Source: Nymphaea colorata (Eukaryota; Streptophyta; Magnoliopsida; Nymphaeales; Nymphaeaceae). From it: 64,000 nucleotides of DNA. The notes beneath the pieces are model-generated. The model was not told where the DNA came from. It ran no database searches and was given only the letters and a program-made list of their open reading frames with translations. Location: the NCBI RefSeq assembly GCF_008831285.2, contig NC_045142.1, positions 26,983,876-27,047,875 on the forward strand. Direction: 5' to 3'. The position numbers were made by a program, and so were the translations under genes. Shown here one piece after another: positions 23,156 to 54,254 of this stretch (position 1 is its first letter; each line of letters opens with the position of its first letter).

Positions 23156-26100
23156 TTTAATCATGACTGGGGTTCCATTACTTCCTACGTACTTTAAGTT
23201 CGCACTCCCTCAAAAGTCACGTGTAGCAAACTAATAACGGATTCTTCATAGACAACACTCCAATTTCCAATCATAGATTCATAGGTACTCTGTTCAGAAG
23301 AAGATATGAAAAAGTTATATTCTTATGATCAGGAACTACGCATGTTAATCAAATTTCGAGGTTTGAGTACCGATCATAAGTACATCCAAATGATCTAATC
23401 AGACTATTTGCTTGATATTGGAAAAAGAGAGAATTAGTTCTGGAGTGAAAACAAATTGAATGATATGACGGCCGGTTGCTTTGAACCCTCCATAAGGAAA
23501 ACGAATCTTTGTGGGTGACATATAAGTAAATCATAAAGAGCTTAAGCAAATAGTTAATACACACACGTGAGAACAGGTTAGGAGGTCGGCTTATTCTTGA
23601 AGCTTTATTAAATAGAGAAGCAATAACACCCTGTTGGTCTTCTTTCACGTTACGAGGTTCACTCAGATTTGACTTGTGAAAGGAAGGAGACTATCGTCAT
23701 CGAATAACTGCCCAGTGAATAAATATGAGAGAAAAATTAGTACATTCAAGCTAGCTTTTGCCTTCTCTAAGAATCACCTTGCCTTATTAGACATGATTTA
23801 TAGTAATTGTGGTTTCCTCGGTTCAATTCATGGGAATTTAGTCTTACATCAATTTAGATGCATCAATAGGATTTTACATCCAGGAGAATGATCTGAGAGT
23901 TCAAATAGTTAGTTTGTTCATCTGAACATGAGATCTTCGTCTTACATATTCATGGTTGAAACTTAATTAGATCCTGAAGACAGGAAAGCTGAAGATAATT
24001 ACGGTTTCGCATGCACATGAATTGCGTCCTTATTCCCAAGCTTTCCTTTAAAATGTCGAAGTGAAAAGATGGGTGGCGATGTTGGGACGTTGATATAGAA
24101 TGACAGGGCACTCACAAACCAGGCAGTTAAAAAGAGAAATTTGAAAGAAAGAAAGAAAGAGAGAAAGAAAGAGGAACTGATGATCAAAAGAAACTAAATT
24201 GAAACCCTAGTCACAAAAAAAAGTAAATCATTTACAATTAAAACAAAAAACTTTTTTTAAAAAAAACGCCAAAACGAAATTTTCTCATTTCTCCTCCCTC
24301 TTTTCATTCTTTTTTTCATTTTTTAATGTCAAACTACTTGTTTTAATTTTCTAATTTTTGTTTGATGCAAATTTACTTATTTTTTGATGTTTATGTTATT
24401 AGTTTCTCACTTATTTTATTTTTTCTTAATTTTTATTTTTTTTTGAAAAAATATCATATTTTTTCTATATTTTCAAGCTCACCATATCATGGTATGAGAA
24501 AAACATCACCGTTTAAAAGGTTAGAAAGTTTTTTGTGACCATGATCGAAACTGAACGGCAAATGCTTCTCAATTCAAACCACTAATAGTAGATGACAGTG
24601 TGGAGGAAGCACCACATACCTTACAAATTTGTTAGGTAAATAAAATGGAAAAGAGGAAAATGGACCAGACTCTTTGCTCCGACCAGTAGTTGGCCCGGCC
24701 GCAGCTACCGGAACCACACATGCATATTCTACGAAGGGCCGTCACCATCGATCTGCTGCGAGGTCCCTTCTCAACCCACCTTCCACCCACTGCCCAATGA
24801 TGATTGTGAGCTAATCATGATGCTCGTATGTACATTACATGGATCTATCCAGTGACGTATGTATCTGTTCCACTGAGGAAAATTTGGGTTTTCACATAAC
24901 ATAGTTGCAGCAGTTTGGTATGAGGAGTCATATCATGAGGTCGAAGATATCTTTAAGGGGGGACTAGACGCCGTTCGTCTCTAAGATGAAGATTGAAGGC
25001 GGGTACATGACAGCCATTAATAGCTTGAAAAAAAAACAGATTCTGTGGATCATCTCCTAGCTCGGTGGACATTACAGTTTCAGTTTTTTGCAGTCACTCG
25101 ATTTGTCAACGAATGGCATCAGGTCTTAATTTAAAAACGGGTGGCTGTCCATCTGTGGCGTGTTTTCTGCCCATAAGCCAAACCATTGTTTCTGTCACCT
25201 GTTCGATCTCCATGCCACTTCATTCACATGATCATCGGTTGTTAATTTAGACCCAAGAAGCAAGAAATATTTATCTATCCTCATGATCACCAGTTGTTAA
25301 TTTAGCCATACCATAATCAGATGAAGCAATCTTTACTAACAAAAGAAATGCAGTAATTAGAGGGGCTTCATTTATTTTCTTCAATTTGAAGATGTCAAGA
25401 TCCTAATATATATATATATATAGATATATATATATCTGAGCTACTTCTAATTGGAAAACTTTTAGCTATTGTAATTCCGACAAAATGATTCGTGAAATTG
25501 ATTGCTTTTCATCTGAAAGAACAACTGCCCATGTTCCCCGCGTTTATCAAAAATCCCGTCTGTGGGCGATTTGATTCCGGTGATTCGAACACTGGTACGA
25601 TGGAACTTATAAAAAGTCTGCGATGAATCCACCCAAGTGATGCCTGTTCAATGAATCAACGTACTGACATGATGAGTTCCACTGATGATGTCGTGAAAAG
25701 GAACCCGATTCCTTCATCGCTGCCCATGCATTAAGCAGGGGAAATGATCAAACTAGTGAAGATAAACATAACAGAGGAACAACCGACAAGCAAAAGTCTT
25801 CTCTTTGCCAATAATTAAGGAATTTATTTCAGATTTGGCGAAGATTGCTAGCCGAAATTTGATCTTTCTTTTTTGGAAAAAGAAAACGAAACGGAAAAGT
25901 GAAGATGCTTTGGGTCCTGGAGACGAAGGGATGTTAACTAACACGTACAAATTTTATATTTTCAAGCATTTGAGGAAGCTCATTGATTTTTTGAAAGCTT
26001 CGACAAAAGAAAAACATGTTTGCATGTTCATTTGATTACATACCACAGTTAATTTGAAGAAACGTACGGCAAAAAATGTGAAGATTAAACCATGTTGTTT

Positions 26101-26204
26101 GCAAATACTGGATAACTTGGAGACCAGTGTAGCTTGAAACAAATATTGGGAAGTCAGCCAAGTAATAGTTATTACAGTATAAGGTTGGACCACCGTGGAA
26201 CATC

Positions 26205-26316
26205 TACATCATGATATCAGAAACATTGGAGATATTGGTTACCCGAGAAAGAATTAAGAATACATCATGATATCAGAAACATTGGAGATATTGATTACCC
26301 GAGAAAGAATTAAGAA
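26205..26316. repeat. 56-bp tandem duplication present only in copy A
   Basis: Units 26205-26260 and 26261-26316 both begin TACATCATGATATCAG and differ by one base (GGTTACC versus GATTACC). The homologous segment at about 32375-32430 has a single unit, so this duplication arose after the segmental duplication or was lost in the other copy. Confidence 0.9.
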
Positions 26317-26871
26317 CGTACATGGGTGTAGCCCTATAAGTAAGAAGAAACCTACAGTGTCCATCACTAGACAAACCTGTGTTAGTTTTCTGCGTCGATT
26401 CTTTTGAATCCGAACTATTAATGACTTGATAACTACCACATATAGACCAACCAGAGCGGGGAGGTTAGGTACCAATGGTTAAGTCTATTAATTGAATATT
26501 CGATGGTTGCCCACTTTAATTACCAGATGCACTCTGTCCTCCAGCTGCCATTTCCCAAGGAAGAGATGAGAAAATACCCTTTTAGATCTAACATCCACGG
26601 AAGGAAGGGGGACAATTGAGTTACATTAGGCCGCACACAGACCAATCAAGTGCTGTTTCTTTTTTACTAAAAAACAGTAAACTAAAGAGAACTTTTTTGG
26701 ATAAGCGGCAGGTTAACCTGCCACCCAAATGAGCACACAGACCAATCAAGTGTTGTTTCTTTCCTCCCCTCTCCCTGGTCTCAAGGTCTAGAGTTGCATC
26801 CAGTGGAACAGGCCCATGATAACTTCAACTTGCATGCAGAGCCAACCCGTTTTTTGGTACATGAGCATAGC

Positions 26872-27533
26872 TGTTATTAGTTTTTGACTTGGCCATATGT
26901 AAGTCAACAGTGGGCATTTATGTCTTTCTTCTTAAACCCTTATTTTGCTTTATGGAAGGGCTCGACATCTTTCCCCTTTTTTTTGCCTCACGCCATCATC
27001 TTGTGGTTTGCTATTTTGGTGGAGAAACTCAAGGAGTGGCCTGCAATTTTGGTGGAGCGTCTCAAGGTGTCGTCGTCAACATGGAGACTCCACGACCAAC
27101 TCTCTCACTTGCTGAAATCTCTTGTGGGCAGTTATTCTATGTGTCGTCTCTAGAAGAAGAGGTATGTTTTTCAGTTTTAGGGTTATGTGAGGAACATACA
27201 GAAAACAGAGAGAGAAAGAGTTTTGGGGCTGAAGGTCACGCAGAGACATTGTTGTTTTGTAAGGGGATTTAGTATATTCTGGTTTCTTGGATCTCACTGT
27301 ATTTTTTATGCTTCATATAATATGAATCCTGCTGGTTTCTCCCCGTGGATGTAGGAAGACAAACAGTCTATCCGAACCATGTAATTTGGGTGTCTTCTGT
27401 GTGATTGCTTTTCTGTTTCGCTCTCTGGAGTTCATTCCACTATTCACTCTCTTGATATCACGAACACATATTTGTTTACAGAGTGGCTGTTTTTCACCTT
27501 ACTCTGTTTTTGCTTGCAATTTGGTCCTAACAT
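26872..27533 (+). mobile_element. Isolated copia LTR (duplicated copy of the LTR of the element at 32988-38393)
   Basis: Begins TGTTATTAGTTTTTGAC like the two LTRs at 32988 and 37729 and matches them across about 660 bp, but lacks the last ~10 bp and has no PBS or pol after it. Open frames within it are LTR sequence, not genes. Confidence 0.9.
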
Positions 27534-31823: not shown

Positions 31824-32987
31824 GAGTTCCACTGATGATGTCGTGAAAAGGAACCCGATTCCTTCATCGCTGCCCATGCATTAAGCAGGGGAAATGATCA
31901 AACTAGTGAAGATAAACATAACAAAGGAACAACCGACAAGCAAAAGTCTTCTCTTTGCCAATAAGTAAGGAATTTATTTCGGATTTGGTGAAGATTCCTA
32001 GCCGAAATTTGATTTTTCTTTTTTGGAAAATGAAAACGAAACGGAAAAGTGAAGATGCTTTGGGCCCTGGAGACTAAGGGATGTTAACTAACACGTACAA
32101 ATTTTTTATTTTCAATTATTTGAGGAAGCTCATTGATTTTTTGAAAGCTTCGACAGAAGAAAAACATGTTTGCATGTTCATTTGATTACATACTCTTTCT
32201 AGTTACATATACCCACAGTTAAATTGAAGAAACGTACGGCAAAAAATGTGAAGATTAAACCATGTTGTTTGCAAATACTGGATAACTTGGAGACCACTGT
32301 AGCTTGAAACAAATATTGGGAAGTCAGCCAAGTAATAGTTATTACAGTATAAGGTTGGACCACGGTGGAACATCTACATCATGATATCAGAAACATTGGA
32401 GATATTGGTTACCCGAGAAAGAATTAAGAACGTACATGGGTGTAGCCCTATAAGCAAGAAGAAACCTACAGTGTCCATCACTCTGGACAAACCTGTGTTA
32501 GTTTTCTGCGTCGATTCTTTTGAATCCGAACTATTAATGACTTGATAACTACCACATATAGACCGACCAGAGCGGGGAGGTTAGGTACCAATGGTTAAGT
32601 CTATTAATTGAATATTCGACGGTTGCCCACTTTAATTACCAGATGCACTCTGTCCTCCAGCTGCCATTTCCCAAGGAAGAGATGAGAAAATAACCTTTTA
32701 GATCTAACATCCACGGAAGGAAGGGGGACAATTGAGTTACATTAGGCCGCACACAGACCAATCAAGTGCTGTTTCTTTTTTACTAAAAAATAGTAAACTA
32801 AAGAGAACTTTTTTGGATAAGCGGCAGGTTAACCTGCCACCCAAATGAGCACACAGACCAATCAAGTGCTGTTTCTTTCCTCCCCTCTCCTTGGTCTCAA
32901 GGTCTAGAGTTGCATCCAGTGGAACAGGCCCATGATAACTTCAACTTGCATGCAGAGCCAACCCGTTTTTTGGTACATGAGCATAGC
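31824..32987. repeat. Segmental duplication copy B (flank part), homologous to 25674-26871
   Basis: Noncoding flank shared with copy A. It includes a perfect palindrome GGCAGGTTAACCTGCC (about 32823) and a repeated CACACAGACCAATCAAG motif. It has a single 56-bp unit where copy A has two, and an extra ~20 bp near 32193. It leads directly into the 5' LTR of the complete copia. Confidence 0.85.
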
Positions 32988-33658
32988 TGTTATTAGTTTT
33001 TGACTTGGCCATATGTAAGTCAACAGTGGGCATTTATGTCTTTCTTCTTAAAACCCTTATTTTGCTTTATGGAAGGGCTCGACATCTTTCCCCCTTTTTT
33101 TGCCTCACGCCATCATCTTATGGTATGCTATTTTGGTGGAGAAACTCAAGGAGTGGCCTGCGATTTTGGTGGAGCGTCTCAAGGTGTCGTTGTCAACATG
33201 GAGACTCCACGACCAACTCTCTCACTTGCTGAAATCTCTTGTGGGCAGTTATTCTCTGTGTCGTCTCTAGAAGAAGAGGTATGTTTTTCAGTTTTGGGGT
33301 TATGTGAGGAACATACATAAAACAGAGAGAAAGAGTTTTGGGGCTGAAGGTCACGCAGAGACATTGTTGTTTTGTAAGGGGATTTAGTATATTCTGGTTT
33401 CTTGGATCTCACTGTATTTTTGATGCTTCATATAATATGAATCCTGCTGGTTTCTCCCCGTGGATGTAGGAAGACAAACAGTCTATCCGAACCACGTAAT
33501 TTTGGTGTCTTCTGTGTGATTGCTTTTCTGTTTCGCTCTCTACAGTTCATTTCACTATTCACTCTCTTGATATCACGAACACATATTTGTTTACAGAGTA
33601 GCTGTTTTTCACCTTACTCTGTTTTTCCTTGCAATTTGGTCCTAACATACGCAACATC

Positions 33659-33670
33659 TGGTATCAGAGC
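33659..33670 (+). other. Primer-binding site, initiator tRNA-Met
   Basis: TGGTATCAGAGC, two bases after the 5' LTR end, is the standard complement to the 3' end of plant initiator tRNA-Met. Confidence 0.93.
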
Positions 33671-33714
33671 CAGGTTGCAAGATTTGTGTTTGTGATAGTT
33701 GTTTTTTGTTGACT

Positions 33715-36700
33715 ATGACGTCAAATATGTCGATGACTAAGTTTGAGGTGGATAAGTTTGACGGCAAAATTGATTTTGGTTTGTGGCAAAAACGTGTAAA
33801 AGCTATTTTGGTTCAGAACAACTTGCATAAAGCCTTGCTTGGAAAAGAGAAATCAGGGATTAAAGATGCTGATTGGGATGAGTTAGACCTGAAGGCGATG
33901 AGTACAATTCAGCTTTGCCTAGCTGATGAAGTGATGTATAATGTTGTAGATGTAGATACTACGACTGATTTATGGGCCAAATTAGAAAAAATGTATATGT
34001 CAAAGTCTCTCACAAATAAGTTGTATTTGAAAAAGCAGCTTTATAGTTTACGTATGACTGATGGGACAAATTTGCTTGAGCATCTGAATACTTTCAATAA
34101 ATTGATTGCTCAACTTCGTAGTATTGGTGTTAAGGTAGATGAAGAAGACCAGGCCCTTCTTCTTCTTTCATCGATGCCTAAATTGTATGATCATCTTGTG
34201 ACTACTATCCTTTATGGAAAAGACACTTTAAAGCTGAAAGAAGTCAGGACTATTTTGCTTTCAAATGAAGCCAGACATAAGCCAAATCATGGAGAAAATT
34301 TAAATGTAAAGGAACATGGTCACGAGAGAGGCCGTCAAAAGCATAAATTCAGCAAGAAGTTCAGATCTCGATCCAAGTCCAAAGGTAAAGACAACAGATG
34401 CAAGTATTGCAAAGAAGAGGGTCATTGGAAAGTTGATTGTCCAAAGCTTAAAGAAAAATACAAACAAAAAAAGAAAGCAGCCGAAGAAGCAAGTGTACCA
34501 TCAGATGTCGATGGAGATGTGCAAGCCATTTCCTCAGGTAATAATCTCAAATCTGATGTACGGATTTTAGATTCTAGATGTTCATACCATATGTGTCCTC
34601 ATAAGTCATGGTTTGATTCTTATACATTATGTGATATTGGAAAAATGTTGATGGGAAATAATACAAAATGTAAATCAGTTGGAATTGAAACCATAAACGT
34701 AAAAATGTTTGATGGTGTCATTAAAACTCTAACAGAAGTTAGACACGTTCCAGATTTAAGAAAAAGTCTTATTTCTCTTGGTACACTTGTTATTAATGGT
34801 TTTACTTTTAGTGGTGTTAATGGCATATTGAAAGTGAAGCGAGAAGCTTTAGTTGTCATGAAAGGAGAGAAAGTTGGATCTCTATACTGGTTGATTGGAG
34901 AAACAATAACAGAGACTGCCGCCATCTCATCTTCTTCATCCCTTTTTGATGATGATACTGCATATTTGTGGCATGCTAGGTTAGGCCATATGAGTGAAAG
35001 AGGGATTCAAGAGTTGCATAATAAAAAGCTACTCAAGGGCATCAAATCATGTAAACTTGAATTCTGTGAATGTTGTGTTCTTGAAAAACAGTGCAGAGTT
35101 AAATTCTCAACCTCTACAAAAAGAAGTAAAGACATTCTTGAATATATCCATTCAGATGTATGGGGGCCTGCACCAGTTACATCTAAAGGAGGAGCTAGAT
35201 TTTTTGTTACATTCATTGATGACTACTCACAAAAAGTTTGGGTATATTTCCTCAAGTATAAGTCTAAAGTATTTGAGACTTTTAAAGAATGGAAAGCGAG
35301 AGTGGAAAATCAAACAGGTAAAAAGTTAAAAGTGCTAAGAAGTGACAATGGTGGTGAGTATACGTCTTCTCAGTTTGAAAAGTTTTGCAAAGTTGAAGGG
35401 ATTACTCGACATTTCACTATTTCAGGTACACCACAGCAGAATGGTGTGGCAGAGAGAATGAACAGAACTTTGATTGAGAGGGCTCGTTGTATGAGGTTGT
35501 TTGCAGGTTTACCAAAACAGTTTTGAGCAGAAGCTGTTAATACTGCATGTTTTTTAGTAAATAGATCTCCTTCTACAGCATTAAATCTGAAAGTGCCAGA
35601 AGAAGTATGGTATGGTAAGCCAGTTGATTACTCTGACATACATATATTTGGTTGTCCTATTTATGTGTTATTGCAGGAAGGAGAAAGAAGCAAACTTGAT
35701 GCTAAATCAAAGAAATGCATCTTTCTTAGATACAAATCAGGCGTGAAAGGGTATAAAGTTTGGAACCCCGACACACAGAAAGTGGAGATTAGCAGAAATG
35801 TAGTTTTTGATGAAGCATCATTGTTAAAGAAAATTCAAGATTGTGATAAAGACATTGAAAAGACAAGAAATCAAATTCAACTTGAGTGGAGTAATGATAA
35901 GAACAACCAAATCTTGGAAGAACCATCACAAGAAAGTGAGGAAGAAGAACAACCACTTGAAGAACCTTATTCTATTGCAAAGGGTAGAGAAAGAAGGGAA
36001 GTTAGATTACCTTTAAAATTTCAAGATACAGTAGCATATGCATTTCCAGTTATGTCTACTAACTCACTGACTTTTCAGGAAGCAATAGAAAGCAAGGATA
36101 GTGGAAAATGGATGGTTGCTATGGAAGATGAAATGAAGTCTCTTCAAAAGAATCAGACATGGGAATTGGTAAGTCTTCCAGAAAGAAAGAAAGTGATTGG
36201 CTGCAAGTGGGTGTTTAGAATAAAAGAATCTTCGAGTGCAGGAGAACCACCAAAGTACAAGGCCAGACTGGTAGCCAAGGGCTATGCTCAGAAAAAAGGA
36301 GTGGATTTTTCAGAAATTTTTTCTCTAGTGGTGAAACATTGCTCAATTAGAGTTTTGTTAGCCATAGTAGCTATTGATGATTTGGAACTTGAACAACTAT
36401 ATGTTAAAACTGCATTTTTACATGGTAGCCTAGAAGAAGAAATATATATGCAGCAACCAGAATGATTTATTCAAGCAAAAAATGAAAAGTTAGTGTGCAA
36501 ATTGAAAAGGTCACTCTATGACTTGAAGCAAGCACCACGACAGTGGTACAAAAGATTTGACACATTTATGTTGGCACAAGGCTACAATAAAAGCAGGTAT
36601 GACAGTTGTGTTTACTTTCATTTTTTGAATGATGGTTCTATTATTATTTTGATGCTCTATGTGGATGACATGCTTATAGCATGCAAACACATGTTAGAAA

Positions 36701-37632
36701 TTGCTAAGTTGAAATATGAACTTAGAAATGAATTTGAAATGAAATATTTGGGGGCAGCCAAAAGAATTTTAGGTATGGAAATTCATAGAGATCGAGAGAA
36801 CAAGAAACTATGGTTGACACAAAAGGAGTATGTAAACAAAGTGTTGGCTAAATTCAATATGAAGAATGCAAAATTAGTTTCTACTCCACTTGCTCAACAC
36901 TTTAAGTTATCTTTGAAAGATTGTTCCAAATCTGAAAAAGAGAGCAACATTATGAGCAAAATACCATATGCAAATGCAGTTGGATGTCTTATGTATGCTA
37001 TGGTCTGTACTAGGCCTGATTTATCTCATGTTGTAAGTAATGTTAGCAGATATATGGCAAATCCAGGTCAAAGACATTGGGAGGCAGTAAAATGGATTCT
37101 ACGATATTTGAAGGGCTCATCAGATGTTGGTTTACTATTTCAGACATGTATAAATATTTCTGATACTCTGATTGGCTATGTTGATTCAGATTATGCAGGT
37201 GACTTAGATAAAAGAAGATCTACAACAGGGTATATATTTACTCTAGGTGGAGGCCCAATCAGTTGGAAAGCTACATTACAAGATATTGTTGCTTTATCAA
37301 CAACTGAATCAGAGTATATTGTCGCAGTAGAAGCTGCTAAAGAAGCAGTTTGGTTAAGGGGACTTGTTAATGAACTGGGTATTATGCAGGAAAATGTCAA
37401 ATTATATTGTGACAATCAAAGCGCAATATGTTTGGCTAAAGATCCAGTTTATCATGGAAGAACTAAACATATAGATGTCAAATATCATAAAATCAGGGAG
37501 TTTGTGGCAAATGGTGAAATTCAACTGCAAAAGGTGGAGTCGCAACATAATGTGACAGACATGTTGACGAAACCTCTCACCACAACTAAATTTCACTATT
37601 GTCTGAGCTTGGCTCAGATTTGTGCATGTTAA
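33715..37632 (+). pseudogene. Copia gag-pol polyprotein, inactivated
   Basis: A single frame of 1306 codons from ATG 33715. Gag is followed by a zinc knuckle CKYCKEEGHWKVDC near residue 229. The protease reads LDSR at residues 285-288 where the family has DSG (AGA at 34576-34578). Integrase has LWHARLGHM, HSDVWGP, RSDNGGEY and GVAERMNRT, so its D,D,E are present. In RT motif A, LEQLYVKTAF has Tyr (TAT at 36400-36402) in place of the catalytic Asp; YVDD is intact. RNase H shows DSDYAGD, ESEYI and CDNQSAICLAKD. Premature stops are TGA 35524-35526 (a Trp position before AEAVNTA) and TGA 36463-36465 (a Gly position in QPEGF). No frameshifts were seen. An enzyme from this copy could not be active. 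Confidence 0.93.
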
Positions 37633-38399
37633 ACATGGTTGGAGTCCAAGGGAGAATGGACATTCATATTGAACAGGATTGATCTTATATATTTTCTAGA
37701 TTATGACCAAGCCCAAAAGGTGGAGTTTTGTTATTAGTTTTTGACTTGGCCATATGTAAGTCAACAGTGGGCATTTATGTCTTTCTTCTTAAAACCCTTA
37801 TTTTGCTTTATGGAAGGGCTCGACATCTTTCCCCTTTTTTTTGCCTCATGCCATCATCTTGTGGTATGCTATTTTGGTGGAGAAACTCAAGGAGTGGCCT
37901 GCGATTTTGGTGGAGCGTCTCAAGGTGTCATCGTCAACATGGAGACTCCACGACCAACTCTCTCACTTGCTGAAATCTCTTGTGGGCAGTTATTCTCTGT
38001 GTCGTCTCTAGAAGAAGAGGTATGTTTTTCAGTTTTGGGGTTATGTGAGGAACATACAAAAAACAGAGAGAAAGAGTTTTGGAGCTGAAGGTCACGCATA
38101 GACATTGTTGTTTTGTAAGGGGATTTAGTATATTCTGGTTTCTTGGATCTCACTGTATTTTTGATGCTTCATATAATATGAATCCTGCTGGTTTCTCCCC
38201 GTGGATGTAGGAAGACAAACAGTCTATCCGAATCACGTAAGGTGTCTTCTGTGTGATTGCTTTTCTGTTTCGCTCTCTGCAGTTCATTTCACTATTCACT
38301 CTCTTGATATCACGAACACATATTTGTTTACAGAGTGGCTGTTTTTCACCTTACTTTGTTTTTGCTTGCAATCTGGTCCTAACATACGCAACACATAGC

Positions 38400-47040: not shown

Positions 47041-49364
47041 CCCTCTTTCTTTCTTAGTTTTTTCCTTTTCGACATCCATCATCCCCATCGTAGGTATTGG
47101 GGATTCAAACGAGACAAGGAGACTTGAAAAGTCAGGTTCAAAATAAAACTGATTTAACTCGTTTCATACGTGTGTGCGCGCGCGTGTGTTGTACTCACCA
47201 TTTTGTAATTTATTTTTTGGATCTTATATAGATGTTTGAACATGTGAAGCCCATTCCTGCTGTTGCGTTTGGTACAAACGTATTTTCAGATGTCAGAATC
47301 TAATTACCATATACATGCTAGAATATTCAGTTGGTTGTCAGATTCTGTAGATGTTCAAAATATTATTCAATAGCGTACATAGATAAACTTTACTCTTTAC
47401 GGATGATCGATATCGTGATCCTGTTTCAAGATAAAGTTCTTGTCAAATGAAAAAGCAGTACTACCTGATAGGACATTCGTTTCTACCCGCAATTTATTTG
47501 ACTTACGGTAGCTTTGTTTTCACCATTTTCTTCCAAAAGAAAAGCATGAAGGCAGGGAGGAGAGGATCGGGAAGGCACAGATCACTAGAAAAGCTTTATT
47601 TTAAATTGACCAAAGTTTTCTGCCGACACAATATGCGCCGTTCTTTTTTTTCAACTTTTTTCTTTTTGGCTATTTGAACACAGAAGAACTTTGTAATTAG
47701 CGGAGGCAAGCTGTTTTAATACAGAAACGCTACTAAGTAGAGAGATGACTAAATGGAAGATTAAGCCAAAAAAATTGCGTTCAATTATATCTCTTTTAGA
47801 CGCAGTGCAAGCCCCCAGTACTTTTCATTATGCTGCGGCAGTAGTGGGAGGTGTAGGTGACAGAGGAGGTCAGCATCGGTGCCAAAGTAGACAAACTGAG
47901 AATGCCATGACTATGACCTATCTTGCACGTCCACCTCTTCGCTCATGAACACTAATGTGAATTCATGCACGCTTTGATGGATCGTGTTTCCCACAGATAA
48001 TATTCAAAGTTGATGATGACCGTCTGTAGGCACATCCATGAAGAGGTGGATCCATGTTAAAGTGGGGGTTTTCATTAATCTTTTGCTGAGAAAGATGAGT
48101 TTTTCAATTTGCCGGCTGATGAAGCAAAACCTCTGCCCGACGATTTGCTATGCTTGAGACGTCATTCCCTTGGCTAGCTGATCGTGCTTAGACCACATAT
48201 GGTTGTGATTTTGGTCATATATGTACGTAGTAAAAGTTTACTGAAAACAATTAAGCAATACTGTGTTAGTATTCCATAAGTCTAATGTTCCATCATTAAT
48301 TAGCTGCCCCAATCTCTGGGACAGAATGTTCCATGAATTAACTGTCCTAATCTAATCTTAGGACAGTTAATTCATGGAACACTAATAAAGTGGACCCTTT
48401 ATAAATCATTCCCTCAAGAACCTTGAAAAACCAGCAGTTAGCAAATAGCTGTATATATATCTCCAATTTTTGTTTAAATTGAGAACATGTTCAAAGCGTA
48501 TTCCCAACAAATGGCCGTCCAGATATATCTACCAAGTTTAATCTGGCAACATGCACTGCAAAATAACATGGTCTGAGCTTTCCCTCGTTAGTTCGAATTT
48601 GCCATGGCAAGGGGAGGAGATCAGAAGTGTAAGACCCCTGATTTTATTTTGTTTTCATAAATTACTGAAACGTTAAAATTAAGAAGGAATTATAAGCGGT
48701 AGATTTAATTGACTGTTACATAGAATGGAAACTGTCAATTAAATCATAGAGGGAGCCATTATGGAAAGAAATAAATGAGAAACACTGACTGTCCTATTCC
48801 TTTCCATGAGAGAGGCGGACAGATTAATCATTTCTTCCTTAATGCTGCAGCCATAGACGAGAGGATCTAGCAACAAGGGGGATTCAAGAGAGAGGGAGAA
48901 AGAGAGAGAGGGACGTCCTCATTCTTGTTCTCTTGTTGGGATTGAGATTGAAGTAGGAGGCTGCTGGAAAAGAACCTCACTCAAAGGGAAGGAGTTGCTG
49001 CCAAGAATTTATTTCAGATTTTCAAAGGTATGGTGATTTTCGGTTATGTTTGTAGCATGAAATCTAAGTATTTTTTATTTTGCATAGAAACATATAAATG
49101 TAGATATATGTATGCATATGCCTAGAAATGAATCCAAGCATGAGGTTCTAGAAATAAAGCATGCTAGATTCAGATATATAATGTTGGGCATGTCCGTTCC
49201 ACTTATGTTTTGAAATACTTGAATTTCTTGTATCATGGTGTGTGTGATTTCATTTTATCCGTGAGGAATCGAGACCATAGGCAACACTAAAACCTAATGT
49301 ATCATCAAACAAGAAAAAAAAAAAAAAAAAAGAGAGCAGTCCCAAACAACGTCGACAGAGGGCA
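43620..49364. other. Intergenic interval upstream of the second LOR gene
   Basis: About 5.7 kb. It has a short TA tract near 44529-44560, a (CT)n array at about 46985-47038 and an alternating GT/GC run at 47168-47189. A perfect hairpin lies at 48327-48381 and a leader-like GA-rich stretch at 48830-49030. Open frames (for example 43856-44275) have no recognised domain. No RNA gene was seen. Confidence 0.5.
48327..48381. repeat. Perfect 24-bp inverted repeat with a 7-nt loop
   Basis: The left arm 48327-48350 begins TGTTCCATGAATTAAC and its exact reverse complement lies at 48358-48381, with loop TCTAATC. An RNA from either strand would fold into a stable hairpin. No flanking target duplication was recognised, and it is too short to be a usual miRNA precursor. 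Confidence 0.9.
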
Positions 49365-49450
49365 AGGCCTGCTCTGCTCGACTTGGGGTAAACAAAAATC
49401 AGCAAGCTTTAAATCAACGCCCAAATGAGAGAGAAATAAAGTGAAAGACC
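49365..49450. repeat. 86-bp direct repeat, left copy, flanking the copia at 49451-54168
   Basis: Matches 54169-54254 over 86 bp with two mismatches by eye (starts AGGCCTGCTCTGCTCG, ends GTGAAAGACC). It abuts the left end of the element. It behaves as an exceptionally long target-site duplication. Confidence 0.88.
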
Positions 49451-49633
49451 TGTCTGCACTTTCTCTTCTTATGCCTCTGTGAATGACACAACACAAGAAC
49501 ACAACACACTAATCGAGCACTTGTTTCTACAAGTGATCACAAAGGCATGACACGTGATAAGAGTACACAACACTAAAAATTTGGGGCACACTTGAAATGT
49601 TTTCTCTCACACATTTAGCCAACCCAAAGGGCC

Positions 49634-49642
49634 ATATATATA
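49634..49642 (-). promoter_or_regulatory. TATA box in U3 of the copia copy
   Basis: TATATATAT on the minus strand, 29-30 bp before 49613, the first base of the repeated block R. This places the transcription start exactly where the repeated block begins. Confidence 0.65.
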
Positions 49643-49865
49643 CATGTAAAGAAAAACTGAAAAATAAATGACATTGACTCTTGGTAACTCTACTATGGTC
49701 ATTATGGACATATTAAAAACAAAAAACTCAAAATATAATGACTATATTAAAAACAAAAAACTGAAAATTAAAATAGGGCACAAGTCTTGGAACGATAGAA
49801 CTTTTGGAGAACCCAAAAGTTAAACCGTTCACCTTCTTCATAAAGGCAACTGCATTAATATTGCA

Positions 49866-52800
49866 TTAACTTTCATCACTCCCCCTTAATGCAAAGTATG
49901 AAACACCAAGGTGAGACCCAAACTTCATATATTTTGGGTATGAAAGTGCCTTTGTAAATCTATCTGCAACTTGGTTGAGCAATACTTCAACACAATTTGA
50001 CCTTTACCAAAAATCTCACGAATGAAATGATGACGAAGTTCAATATGTTTTGTCCGTCCATGGTAAATTGGATTTCTTGTCGTTGCTATAGTTGCCTTGT
50101 TGTCACAATGAATTGGTGTTCCTTCAGTTTGACTTTGACCAAGGTCTTCCAAAACTCGACGCATCCAAATTGCCTGACAAGTAGCTGCAGATGCAGCAAT
50201 ATACTCTGCTTCTAAAGATGATAATGCCGTCGTACTTTGCTTCTTTGAACACCATGATATAGCACCTGATCCAAGTGTAAAGACATAACCGCTTGTGTTC
50301 CTTCGATCATCTACAGCTCCTGTCCAGTCACTATCAGTGTAACCAAATAAGTTAAAACAAACATCTGATTTATACCAAATTCCATATTCAGTAGTTTCAC
50401 GGATGTAACGCAAAACACGTTTTGCTGCCCCCAAATGGTGTAATGATGGATTGTGCATGAATCTGGATAACAAGCTGACAGCAAATAAAATATCTGGTCG
50501 TGTATGAGTCAAATATAACAAGCCACCAACTAGACCTCTAAACAATGTTTCATTGGCTTTAGCAGTCCCATCAGACAAAGTCAACTTTTCACCTGCATTC
50601 ATAGGAGTAGAGCACGATTTGCAATCTAACATTTTATACTTCTTAAATAGGCTTAATGCATATTTTTCTTGAGAAATAAAAATACCATTATTTGTTTGGA
50701 CAACTTGAAGACAAAAAAAATGCAATAAACCCAAATCTGTCATTTCAAACTCACTTATCATACTGTTCTTGAATTTTTGAATGAGCACATCACTTGATCC
50801 CATGTAGATAATGTCATCTACATAAACACATACCACAAGCATATCAATGTCTTCATTTTTCAAGTATAATGTGGGTTCAGTCTCACAACGTCGAAATCCA
50901 TTTTTGTAAAGATATGTGTCAAGCCTCCCATACCATGCTCTTGGTGCTTGCCTGATGCCATAAAGGGCCTTCTTCAACTTATACACTTTCTTCTCATATT
51001 CACTTATGACAAAGCCCTGTGATTGATGTACATATACATCTTCTTTTAAAGCACCATTCAAAAAAACAGATTTGACATCAAATTGAAATACCTTCCATTT
51101 TAAGTGAGCTGCAAGTACCAATACTAGCCTAATAGTCTCAAAACGAGCAACAGGAGAAAAAGTTTCAAAATAATCAATGTCATATTTTTGTACATACCCT
51201 CTGACGACTAGTCTGGCCTTGTATTTTTGCACATCTCCATCAACATTATATTTCAATTTGCAAACACATTTCACACTTATAGGTTCCTTTCCTTGTGGCA
51301 AATCTACTAGCTGCTATGTATCATTTCTCTTAATTGTATCGATATCTTTTTGCATTTTTTTTTCTCATTCTTCTTTACCACATGCTTCCTCATAACATGA
51401 TGGTTCAGTTACCATAAAAGCAAATGAACAAGAAGCATATATGTCATCTAGAGATCGTACCTTTCTTGGTGGAGAAGACCCATCTGTAATTATTTCAACA
51501 TCTTCTTCATGATCTGAATTGGTCTCTTTTGAATGAGTAGCACTTGACGTTGATGCATTTGAGTGAGAAGTTGAATCAACAAATGGAATCTGTTGATCTT
51601 CTATTGTTGTCACGATCCATTCTCATCAAAAATGATATCACGCCGAATAATTAAAGACTTTGTTACTGGATTGTATAGTCTATAACCTTTTGAGTTATTA
51701 CTATAACCCACAAAAATACATTTCTCACTCTTTTTATCTATTTTGTCTCGACTACTAGAATCAAGCAGAGAGTAGACAATGCATCCAAAAACTTTCAAAA
51801 TACTTACATCAGGTTTTTTATTCCACCATGCTTCATATGAAGTCATATTGCAGACTGCTTTGGTTGGTGATATGTTGAGAAGATACACAGCTGTAGCTTC
51901 TGCTTCAGCCCAAAACTCATTTGGAAGATGCTTCTCATTCAGCATGCTACGAGCCATCTCTACCACTGTACGGTTTTTTCTTTCAGCTACTCCATTTTGT
52001 TGAGGAGTTTTTCTTACTGTCAACTGTCTACGTATGCCATGTAATTTGCAAAAATTGTCAAAATCATTTGACAAAAATTCTCCCCCTCTATCAGTACGAA
52101 ATTTTTTTATAGGTCGCCCACATTCTTTTTCTGCAAACACTTTAAATTCCTTGAATTTTTCAAAGGCTTCGGATTTTTCAACAAGAAAAAACACCCAACT
52201 CATGCGAGAAAAATCGTCAGTGAATAGTAGAAAATATCTACTATTATTTAGAGATGGAGTTCTTGGTGGTCCACAAATGTCAGCATGCACTAATTCTAAT
52301 GGAGTTTTTGCTCTCCATGCTTTCCCAACTGAAAATGGAAGACGATGTTGTTTTCCATACACACATGCTTCACAAATATCTTCATTATTGGTAAGACGAG
52401 GTAAACCAACAACTAATTTTTTCTGCCTCAATAACTTCAGTCCATTGTAGTGCAAGTGTCCATATCTTAAGTGTCATAATTTAGACACTTTATTCATGTC
52501 TGCTACTAAGGCATATGCATCAAAGTGTGAAAGCTCGATTGAAAACATTTTGTTCTTTGTCATGTGCACTACTATAGGTGGCATGGTAGAACATTTCTTT
52601 TTTTATTTCACATACATCATCATGAAATGAAATCAAATATCCTTTTTGTGCTAACTGTCCAACGCTTAGTAAGTTATATGTTAATTCAGGTATATAATAA
52701 ATATCATGTACCAACCTTTTAGTACCACTTTTAATTGATATCTCAATTGTGCCTTTACCATCAATTTGCACCTTTTTATTGTCTCCAAGTCGAACTTGTT

Positions 52801-53860
52801 GCTTCACCGATTCATCAATGTCACAAAACAAGCCTCTCTTTCCTGCCATATGTTTACTGCATCCACTATCTAAAAACCATACATGATCAATATTTTCATT
52901 TGACTCTGTATGAGTAAAAAATAAGTTACCATCTTCTGCTTTCTCTTCCACTACATTAGCTTGTTGTTTTGCTTTATCCCAACAGTACGCTTCAGTATGA
53001 CCATTTCTTTTGCAAAAAACATAATACCTGTTTTTGTGGGCATGTTTTTTATTGTTAGTGTCACCTCCTTCTGACTTGTTTCTGACTGCCTCAAATCTTC
53101 CTCGTCCACGTCCACGATAGTTACCTCTACCTCGCCCGCGATATGCATTCTTTCGTACAGTTGCTCCCTTTCTCTCTTTGCTAAAGTCATCCAACTTGAG
53201 TTGAGCTTGGAATGCTTGTTCAACACTTTTCTCAGTTGACCTGTTCATTCTTTGTTCATGGGCTAAAAGAGAACCCAATAATTCATTAGCAGAGTATGCA
53301 GTCAAATCCTTAGACTCTTCTATAGCCATAACCACATGATCAAATTTAAGCAGTAAGCCCCTCAATATTTTTTCTACAATTTTCTGGTTGCTAACAACCT
53401 CTCCAAAGATTTTCATCTCATTTATAATTATGAAAGCTCTTGAAAAAAAATCTTGGACTGGTTCATTGTTTTTCATAAACAATGTCTCAAACTCTTTACG
53501 GAGGATTTGGAGTTTCACTGTCATTACCTTCTTATCACCATGATATTCTTGTTTGAGAATAGTCGAAGCTTCATTTGAACTAATAGCACCAGCAATTCGA
53601 GGAAAGATAGTCTCACTTACAGCTTGTTGAATAACAAGCAAGGCTTTTGAATCCTTCTTTCGTTGCTCTCTTGATTCAACTGTCTTTTCTCCTTGTTTTG
53701 AGCTCTCTGCACTTTCTATATAACCATTTTCAACTAAATCCCAAAGATCTTGTGACAAAAAGAAGGTCTTCATTTTTATGCTCAAAAAACAATAATTATC
53801 ACAACTAAATACCGGTATGAGCGATTGAAAAATATTTGAAGTGGACATGCCATTAGCCAT
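49866..53860 (-). pseudogene. Copia gag-pol polyprotein, multiply disrupted
   Basis: From ATG 53860: gag, an RG-rich stretch (RGRGRGNYRGRGRGR), a zinc knuckle lacking its first Cys (CKRNGHTEAYC) and protease LDSGCSKHM. GAG-pre-integrase HLRYGHLHYNGL and integrase HADICGP, RTDRGGEF and GVAERKNRT follow. RT shows QFDVKSVFLNG and VYVDDII; RNase H shows YTDSDWTG, EAEYIAA and CDNKATIATTRN. Damage: a frameshift near 52600 in an A run, TGA 52474-52476 at the Trp of LWHLRYGH, a frame change near 51610, TGA 51365-51367 and TAG 51314-51316 at Trp positions, and a frameshift near 49970. After that shift the frame reads FTKALSYPKYMKFG and ends at TAA 49866-49868. It is a different family from the element at 32988-38393. 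Confidence 0.9.
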
Positions 53861-53971
53861 AATGAACAAAAATTTCTCACAGAAATTTTGTCGAACAAGT
53901 TATGTGCAGACTTTACCTTGCAGGCATCTCTTTTGCACTTTTACCAACAATCACGACAACAAAATCGACAT

Positions 53972-53984
53972 GTCTCTAATACCA
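53972..53984 (-). other. Primer-binding site of the copia copy
   Basis: The minus strand reads TGGTATTAGAGAC one base after the U5 end (GCTAACA). It matches the initiator tRNA-Met primer sequence except for one C-to-T change, itself a deamination-type change. Confidence 0.8.
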
Positions 53985-54168
53985 CTGTTAGCAACAGGAA
54001 TGACATGTCTGCACTTTCTCTTCTTATGCTCATGTGAATGACACAACATAAGAACACAACACACTAATGGAGCACTTGTTTCTACAAGTGATCACAAAGG
54101 CATGACACGTGATAAGAGTACACAATACTAAAAATTTGGAGCACACTTGAAATGCTTTCTCTCACACA

Positions 54169-54254
54169 AGGCCTGCTCTGCTCGACTTGGGGTAAACCAA
54201 AATCAGCAAGCTTTAAATCAACGCCCAAATGAGAGAGGAATAAAGTGAAAGACC
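54169..54254. repeat. 86-bp direct repeat, right copy, flanking the copia at 49451-54168
   Basis: Right-hand partner of 49365-49450; the host sequence continues after it (CAGGAAAAG) as it would in an empty site. A translation of the minus strand contains LADFG, but there is no kinase context and this is chance. Confidence 0.88.

Follow-up and report, generated by a model that had tools for sequence, protein, structure and literature searches.

The stretch of DNA analyzed here (the window) comprises 64,000 nucleotides (nt) of contig NC_045142.1 in the Nymphaea colorata assembly GCF_008831285.2, and between positions 49451 and 54168 it holds a Copia long terminal repeat (LTR) retrotransposon with unusual ends. 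Read on the minus strand, the element consists of R, U5, a primer-binding site, pieces of gag-pol, a purine tract, U3 and a second R, where R, U5 and U3 are the repeated, unique 5' and unique 3' blocks of an LTR (Table 1). The order gag, integrase, reverse transcriptase, together with the primer-binding site and the polypurine tract, identifies it as a Ty1/Copia element. The three coding parts are separate open stretches, and domains were sought in each of them individually. The region around TGGTATTAGAG presumably resembles the primer site for plant initiator tRNA-Met. The two R copies are 94% identical over 171 nt, with 155 of the 163 aligned R sites identical. Neither end of the element carries the complete U3-R-U5 that normal integration places at both.

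A preliminary description of this element, made from the sequence alone, held that its 5' end begins at R and lacks U3. This is confirmed: U3 occurs once, after the purine tract, a TATA box begins 29 nt ahead of the start of R, and no match to U3 is present past 54168. The R start of the window copy reads TG, and CA on its 3' strand, and is not an LTR end. The further claim that the 3' end has U3 and R and stops 20 base pairs (bp) short, with no U5, is literally correct. However, the missing stretch may be 16 bp, because the GGTC at this junction can be assigned either to the target or to the usual U5 start of the family. If those bases are counted as element, they constitute a possible 4-bp microhomology; the window copy's own 5' U5 starts TGTC, and so this microhomology depends on the U5 of the parent copy.

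In place of the 5-bp target duplication expected from normal integration, an 88-bp direct repeat abuts both ends of the element, with 86 of its 88 positions identical. Two bases (54167-54168) match both target and element, giving a 2-bp microhomology and an ambiguity of 2 bp at the left, or element 5', junction. The order 88-R...R-88 rules out that the repeat is part of the LTR; it therefore looks like a target duplication, and the two element ends look like original junctions. At the 3' junction no poly(A) was found, the A run at 49314-49331 lying outside the lower-coordinate repeat copy and away from the junction, and a search of the ends for a TT/AAAA target motif was likewise negative. The R copies differ at 8 of 163 sites and the repeat copies at 2 of 88 (p = 0.50), a comparison that does not show the R copies to be older than the target duplication; a greater age would have spoken for a parent with diverged LTRs.

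Table 1. Features of the Copia copy in the window and of its target site
Feature	Position	Strand	Remarks
Lower-coordinate copy of the 88-bp target duplication	49363..49450	.	adjoins element 3' end
GGTC (element sense)	49447..49450	.	fits target and usual family U5 start; possible 4-bp microhomology at the aberrant 3' end
3' R	49451..49613	-	U5 absent after R
U3, 265 bp	49614..49878	-	sole U3 of this copy, adjoining the purine tract
TATA box	49635..49642	-	first T 29 nt ahead of R start
Polypurine tract, TTAAGGGGGAG	49879..49889	-	immediately before U3; identical or near-identical tract precedes the 3' LTR in other copies shown
Reverse transcriptase frame	49925..51313	-	PF07727 1.8e-69
Integrase frame	51610..52473	-	PF00665, PF13976, PF25597
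gag frame and Pol beta-barrel domain	52520..53899	-	PF14223 8e-24, PF22936 8e-29
Single spacer base and primer-binding-site region (TGGTATTAGAG)	53974..53985	-	
U5, 20 bp	53986..54005	-	ending CTAACA, as in most other family LTRs shown
5' R	54006..54168	-	no U3 upstream
Higher-coordinate copy of the 88-bp target duplication	54167..54254	.	adjoins element 5' end

The family to which this copy belongs was located in the genome (407.8 Mb, 783 contigs) by searching with R-U5, which is found in at least 40 places (40 of 109 candidates scored), and with U3, also found in at least 40 places (40 of 123 candidates scored). A 31-base R pattern with no more than three mismatches occurs at 32 genome sites. 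The family LTR is ~448 bp long, as the preliminary description had anticipated, and has TG...CA ends, beginning with TGATGAAAG or small variants of it and ending with TTGCTAACA or TTGCTAATA. Of the 42 places with a related leader, 20 were examined. Eighteen other copies were examined at the primer-binding site, and in 16 of them (C1, C2, C3, C4, C5b, C5c, C6, C7, C8a, C8b, C10a, C10b, C13a, C13b, C13c and C14) U3 lies upstream of the 5' R; the two exceptions are C9, which has no 5' LTR, and C9:18724431, which begins inside R. An LTR consisting of the 183-bp R-U5 block alone, the alternative that the preliminary description had itself raised, is ruled out, as U3 comes after the purine tract and also ahead of R in the other 5' LTRs inspected, and the 5-bp duplications lie outside U3 and U5.

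Those duplications were assessed by a scripted test in 13 two-ended copies. Eight have a perfect 5-bp target duplication, C13a matches at 4 of 5 bases, C1 has ATAT on both sides, shifted by one base, and C8a, C14 and C5b fail. Among solo LTRs the duplication is perfect at five of six loci, with 4 of 5 bases matching at the sixth. Two of these five solo LTRs, on C4 near 4.09 and 3.81 Mb (L028 and L029), share their immediate flank as well as the duplication ATTGT, and probably belong to one segmental duplication. Other arrangements also occur in the family, including a tandem LTR-internal-LTR-internal-LTR copy with the outer 5-bp duplication GCAGC (G000:C7:16920592-16927112; L021, L024 and L038) and C3b, which when read by eye looks 5'-truncated with an internal deletion.

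A second copy, C5b (C5:4807246-4812255), has the same defect at its right end. Its 5' LTR is complete, starting TGATAAAAG with the intact TG start of U3. The 3' LTR stops after R/U5 position 167; a TC there is common to element and target (a 2-bp microhomology), and hence the end falls at 165-167 of the 183-bp R-U5 block. The corresponding end in the window copy falls at 163-167, and the U5-less 3' ends of the two copies thus lie within 4 bp of each other. C5b is also flanked by an abutting direct duplication, 325 bp long upstream and 346 bp downstream, whose two copies differ by 9 substitutions over 325 aligned sites and by a single 21-bp gap. The divergence of its LTR pair (16/443) does not differ from that of the duplication (9/325; p = 0.55), and it may be that the two were made at the same time. 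An abutting long duplication is present in both of the U5-less two-ended copies, as compared to none of 13 other two-ended copies tested, in which C1, C3 and C13c have short repeats away from the junction. Neither the 88-bp duplication without poly(A) nor C5b, with its U5-less end and long duplication, formed part of the preliminary description. The duplicated target of C5b (L048, C5:4805000-4814000), read by eye, looks as though it codes for a malectin-like receptor kinase.

From the TATA box at -29 and from variation at the U3/R border, the element 5' end (54168) seems to correspond to the 5' end of the genomic RNA. In an alignment of 39 LTR rows, the sequence on the U3 side of the border (GGCYAAA) is nearly constant, and the first bases of R are variable, reading TGTGTG, GGAGTG, GGTGTG, GTAGTG or TATGTG. 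The 10-column mean entropy is 0.53 at the border versus 0.22 overall. The border is not the sole variable spot, however, because one stretch of U3 reaches 1.06 and another, ~20 columns into R, scores 0.52. Errors at RNA starts or at first-strand transfer would be expected to produce variation of this kind at the border. An end placed uniformly would fall within 2 bp of the border in ~5/448 cases, a chance of ~1%. In C5c (L046, C5:4687809-4688658), the 5' LTR has a short tandem repeat of the first R bases that starts at the U3/R border.

The best explanation for the window copy, and one that is somewhat probable, is that host break repair, and not normal two-ended integration, attached an incomplete Copia complementary DNA (cDNA) to the chromosome. 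The 88-bp duplication favors break repair over the usual insertion reaction of the element. Minus-strand synthesis would have proceeded through the primer-binding site up to the 5' end of the genomic RNA, the template being a second packaged RNA in which R-U5 was still undegraded. The left end of the cDNA would then be the start of R, with U3 never received, and the element 3' end would have lost its last 16-20 bp, which make up U5. The U5-less end, at least, may have been joined by host repair via the possible 4-bp microhomology, in the course of which the 88-bp tandem target duplication would have been made. The R end could have been joined by integrase, or both ends by host repair. The preliminary description, which is confirmed as to its observation, had proposed the insertion of either the RNA or a cDNA in which strand transfer was never finished, and this interpretation is partly supported: the unfinished cDNA comes near the explanation given here, and insertion of the RNA is weakened by the complete 5' LTR of C5b.

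Several points weigh against an incomplete cDNA joined by host repair. The U5-less ends of the window copy and C5b nearly coincide, which random trimming would not predict and a real RNA 3' end would; under uniform trimming, the chance that two ends come to lie so close together (4 bp) is ~0.18 over 50 bp and ~0.02 over 448 bp. The match of the element 5' end to the RNA 5' end is itself an apparent one, read from the sequence. The signature is also found in two copies alone within the places examined. Finally, C14 and C8a lack a 5-bp duplication and have no long duplication of any kind, and so the loss of the 5-bp signature is not in itself special.

The strongest alternative, although an unlikely one, is that the RNA was copied directly at a chromosome break, with a ...GACC-3' end pairing with an RNA 3' end ...GGUC and reverse transcriptase then copying the RNA from end to end. 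What speaks against setting it aside more firmly is the spacing of at most 4 bp between the two U5-less ends, as would suit priming at the poly(A) site. The R-U5...U3-R arrangement is collinear with RNA, and the possible microhomologies of 4 bp in the window copy and 2 bp in C5b lie at the U5-less end, where pairing would take place. However, the junction has no poly(A), and C5b, with nearly the same right end, begins with U3 and is thus no simple copy of RNA. A version that accommodates both copies is rather less likely again: plant Copia elements would enter by RNA-primed repair at the poly(A) site of the RNA, using their own reverse transcriptase, with the window copy as a direct product and C5b as one that went through an additional R-to-R strand transfer prior to joining.

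It is improbable that a chromosomal donor copy served as filler in break repair and was copied from the R of its 5' LTR to the R of its 3' LTR. Natural rice insertions of 10-1000 bp do include tandem duplications (PMC7407515), which lends this idea some plausibility, but copying of a donor predicts neither that the left end coincides with the RNA start nor that two copies have near-identical right ends. Still less probable is that the element integrated in the ordinary way and later lost U3 from one end and U5 from the other. Truncated LTR copies are frequent in plants (PMC11899658); here, though, each end directly adjoins the 88-bp direct repeat and so resembles an original junction, and deletion would remove a 5-bp duplication and could not create one of 88 bp. 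Retroposition of the genomic RNA by the machinery of long interspersed nuclear elements (LINEs), which the preliminary description had likened to the processed pseudogenes of HERV-W, is hardly credible, since it accounts for the R-U5...U3-R arrangement and nothing else, the junction having no poly(A), the duplication being 88 bp and not 5-15 bp, and the ends showing no TT/AAAA target. Freed of LINEs, the RNA reading of that description amounts to the direct copying at a break considered above.

Before second-strand transfer, minus-strand synthesis halts at the primer-binding site. C9 (C9:6957602-6960997; L040 3603-6998), which has a complete 3' LTR, starts at the spacer base before this site. 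No 5-bp duplication is visible at C9, and there is no long duplication within the flanks tested. It is possible that C9 represents a third aberrant entry, at another stop point of reverse transcription; alternatively, its 5' LTR may have been lost in a later deletion. The related copy C9:18724431 (L079, C9:18724700-18725500), with its 5' end inside R, adjoins there a sequence that, read by eye, resembles peroxidase coding sequence in reverse orientation; the 1.2 kb looked at (L080) did not contain the 3' part of the copy.

Elsewhere in the window, on the plus strand, a second LTR element occupies 32988-38393, with 669-bp LTRs that are 97% alike and CATAGC on both sides. Beside it is a duplicated block (25674-27533 and 31824-33648) that holds its flank and an LTR without the last 8 bp.

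If an incomplete cDNA was indeed joined by host repair, reverse-transcription intermediates of a plant retrotransposon would be kept as genomic fossils, and host repair might be able to finish what integrase left undone. The position of the RNA start would also be suggested by such a copy without recourse to transcript data. A U5-less 3' end with a long abutting duplication occurs in 2 of the 15 two-ended family copies examined, namely the window copy and C5b. Any plant genome can easily be screened for this signature, which makes the rate of non-canonical insertion measurable. Among the open-literature matches listed, as judged from the title or the start of the abstract, none describes a plant LTR copy with R-U5...U3-R ends, which is no proof that such copies are absent.

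Several known systems may be compared to the window copy. The processed pseudogenes of HERV-W carry poly(A) and a TT/AAAA motif and are flanked by target duplications of 5-15 bp (PMC5016936). They begin with R-U5 and finish with U3-R, as does the window copy, but none of those three other features is present in the latter. In Triticeae, complex LTR retrotransposons generated by template switching are similarly abnormal reverse-transcription products that have been kept in a plant genome; unlike the window copy, they have three LTRs and normal 5-bp duplications (PMC1950507). For rice insertions that form tandem duplications, asymmetrical nicks have been invoked as the cause (Vaughn and Bennetzen 2014, via PMC7407515).

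In yeast, Ty1 replication intermediates enter double-strand breaks by end joining (PMC10802722, a preprint). There the inserted pieces come from all regions of Ty1, whereas the copy in the window is from a plant and nearly full-length. Tf1 can retrotranspose independently of integrase (Li et al. 2022), using homology with element-like sequences by way of Rad52 and single-strand annealing (PMC12786077; cited in PMC11899658). This route resembles the window copy in that insertion occurs without full integrase action, and differs from it in that the window copy has 2-4 bp in common with its target.

One-ended integration of human immunodeficiency virus type 1 (HIV-1) and avian sarcoma and leukosis virus (ASLV) offers a further parallel. 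Normal integration of these viruses duplicates 4-6 bp of host DNA. In the one-ended form, integrase inserts one end and host enzymes join the other; one end is normal, the other is often truncated and shows short homology, and host DNA is commonly duplicated over lengths that can reach hundreds or thousands of bp (PMC5041404). The viral cases arose under impaired integrase or with mutated ends; the window copy additionally lacks U3 at its other end. Like them, the window copy has a truncated end, short homology (if the parent U5 starts GGTC) and a long host duplication, and C5b agrees with one-ended integration at both of its ends.

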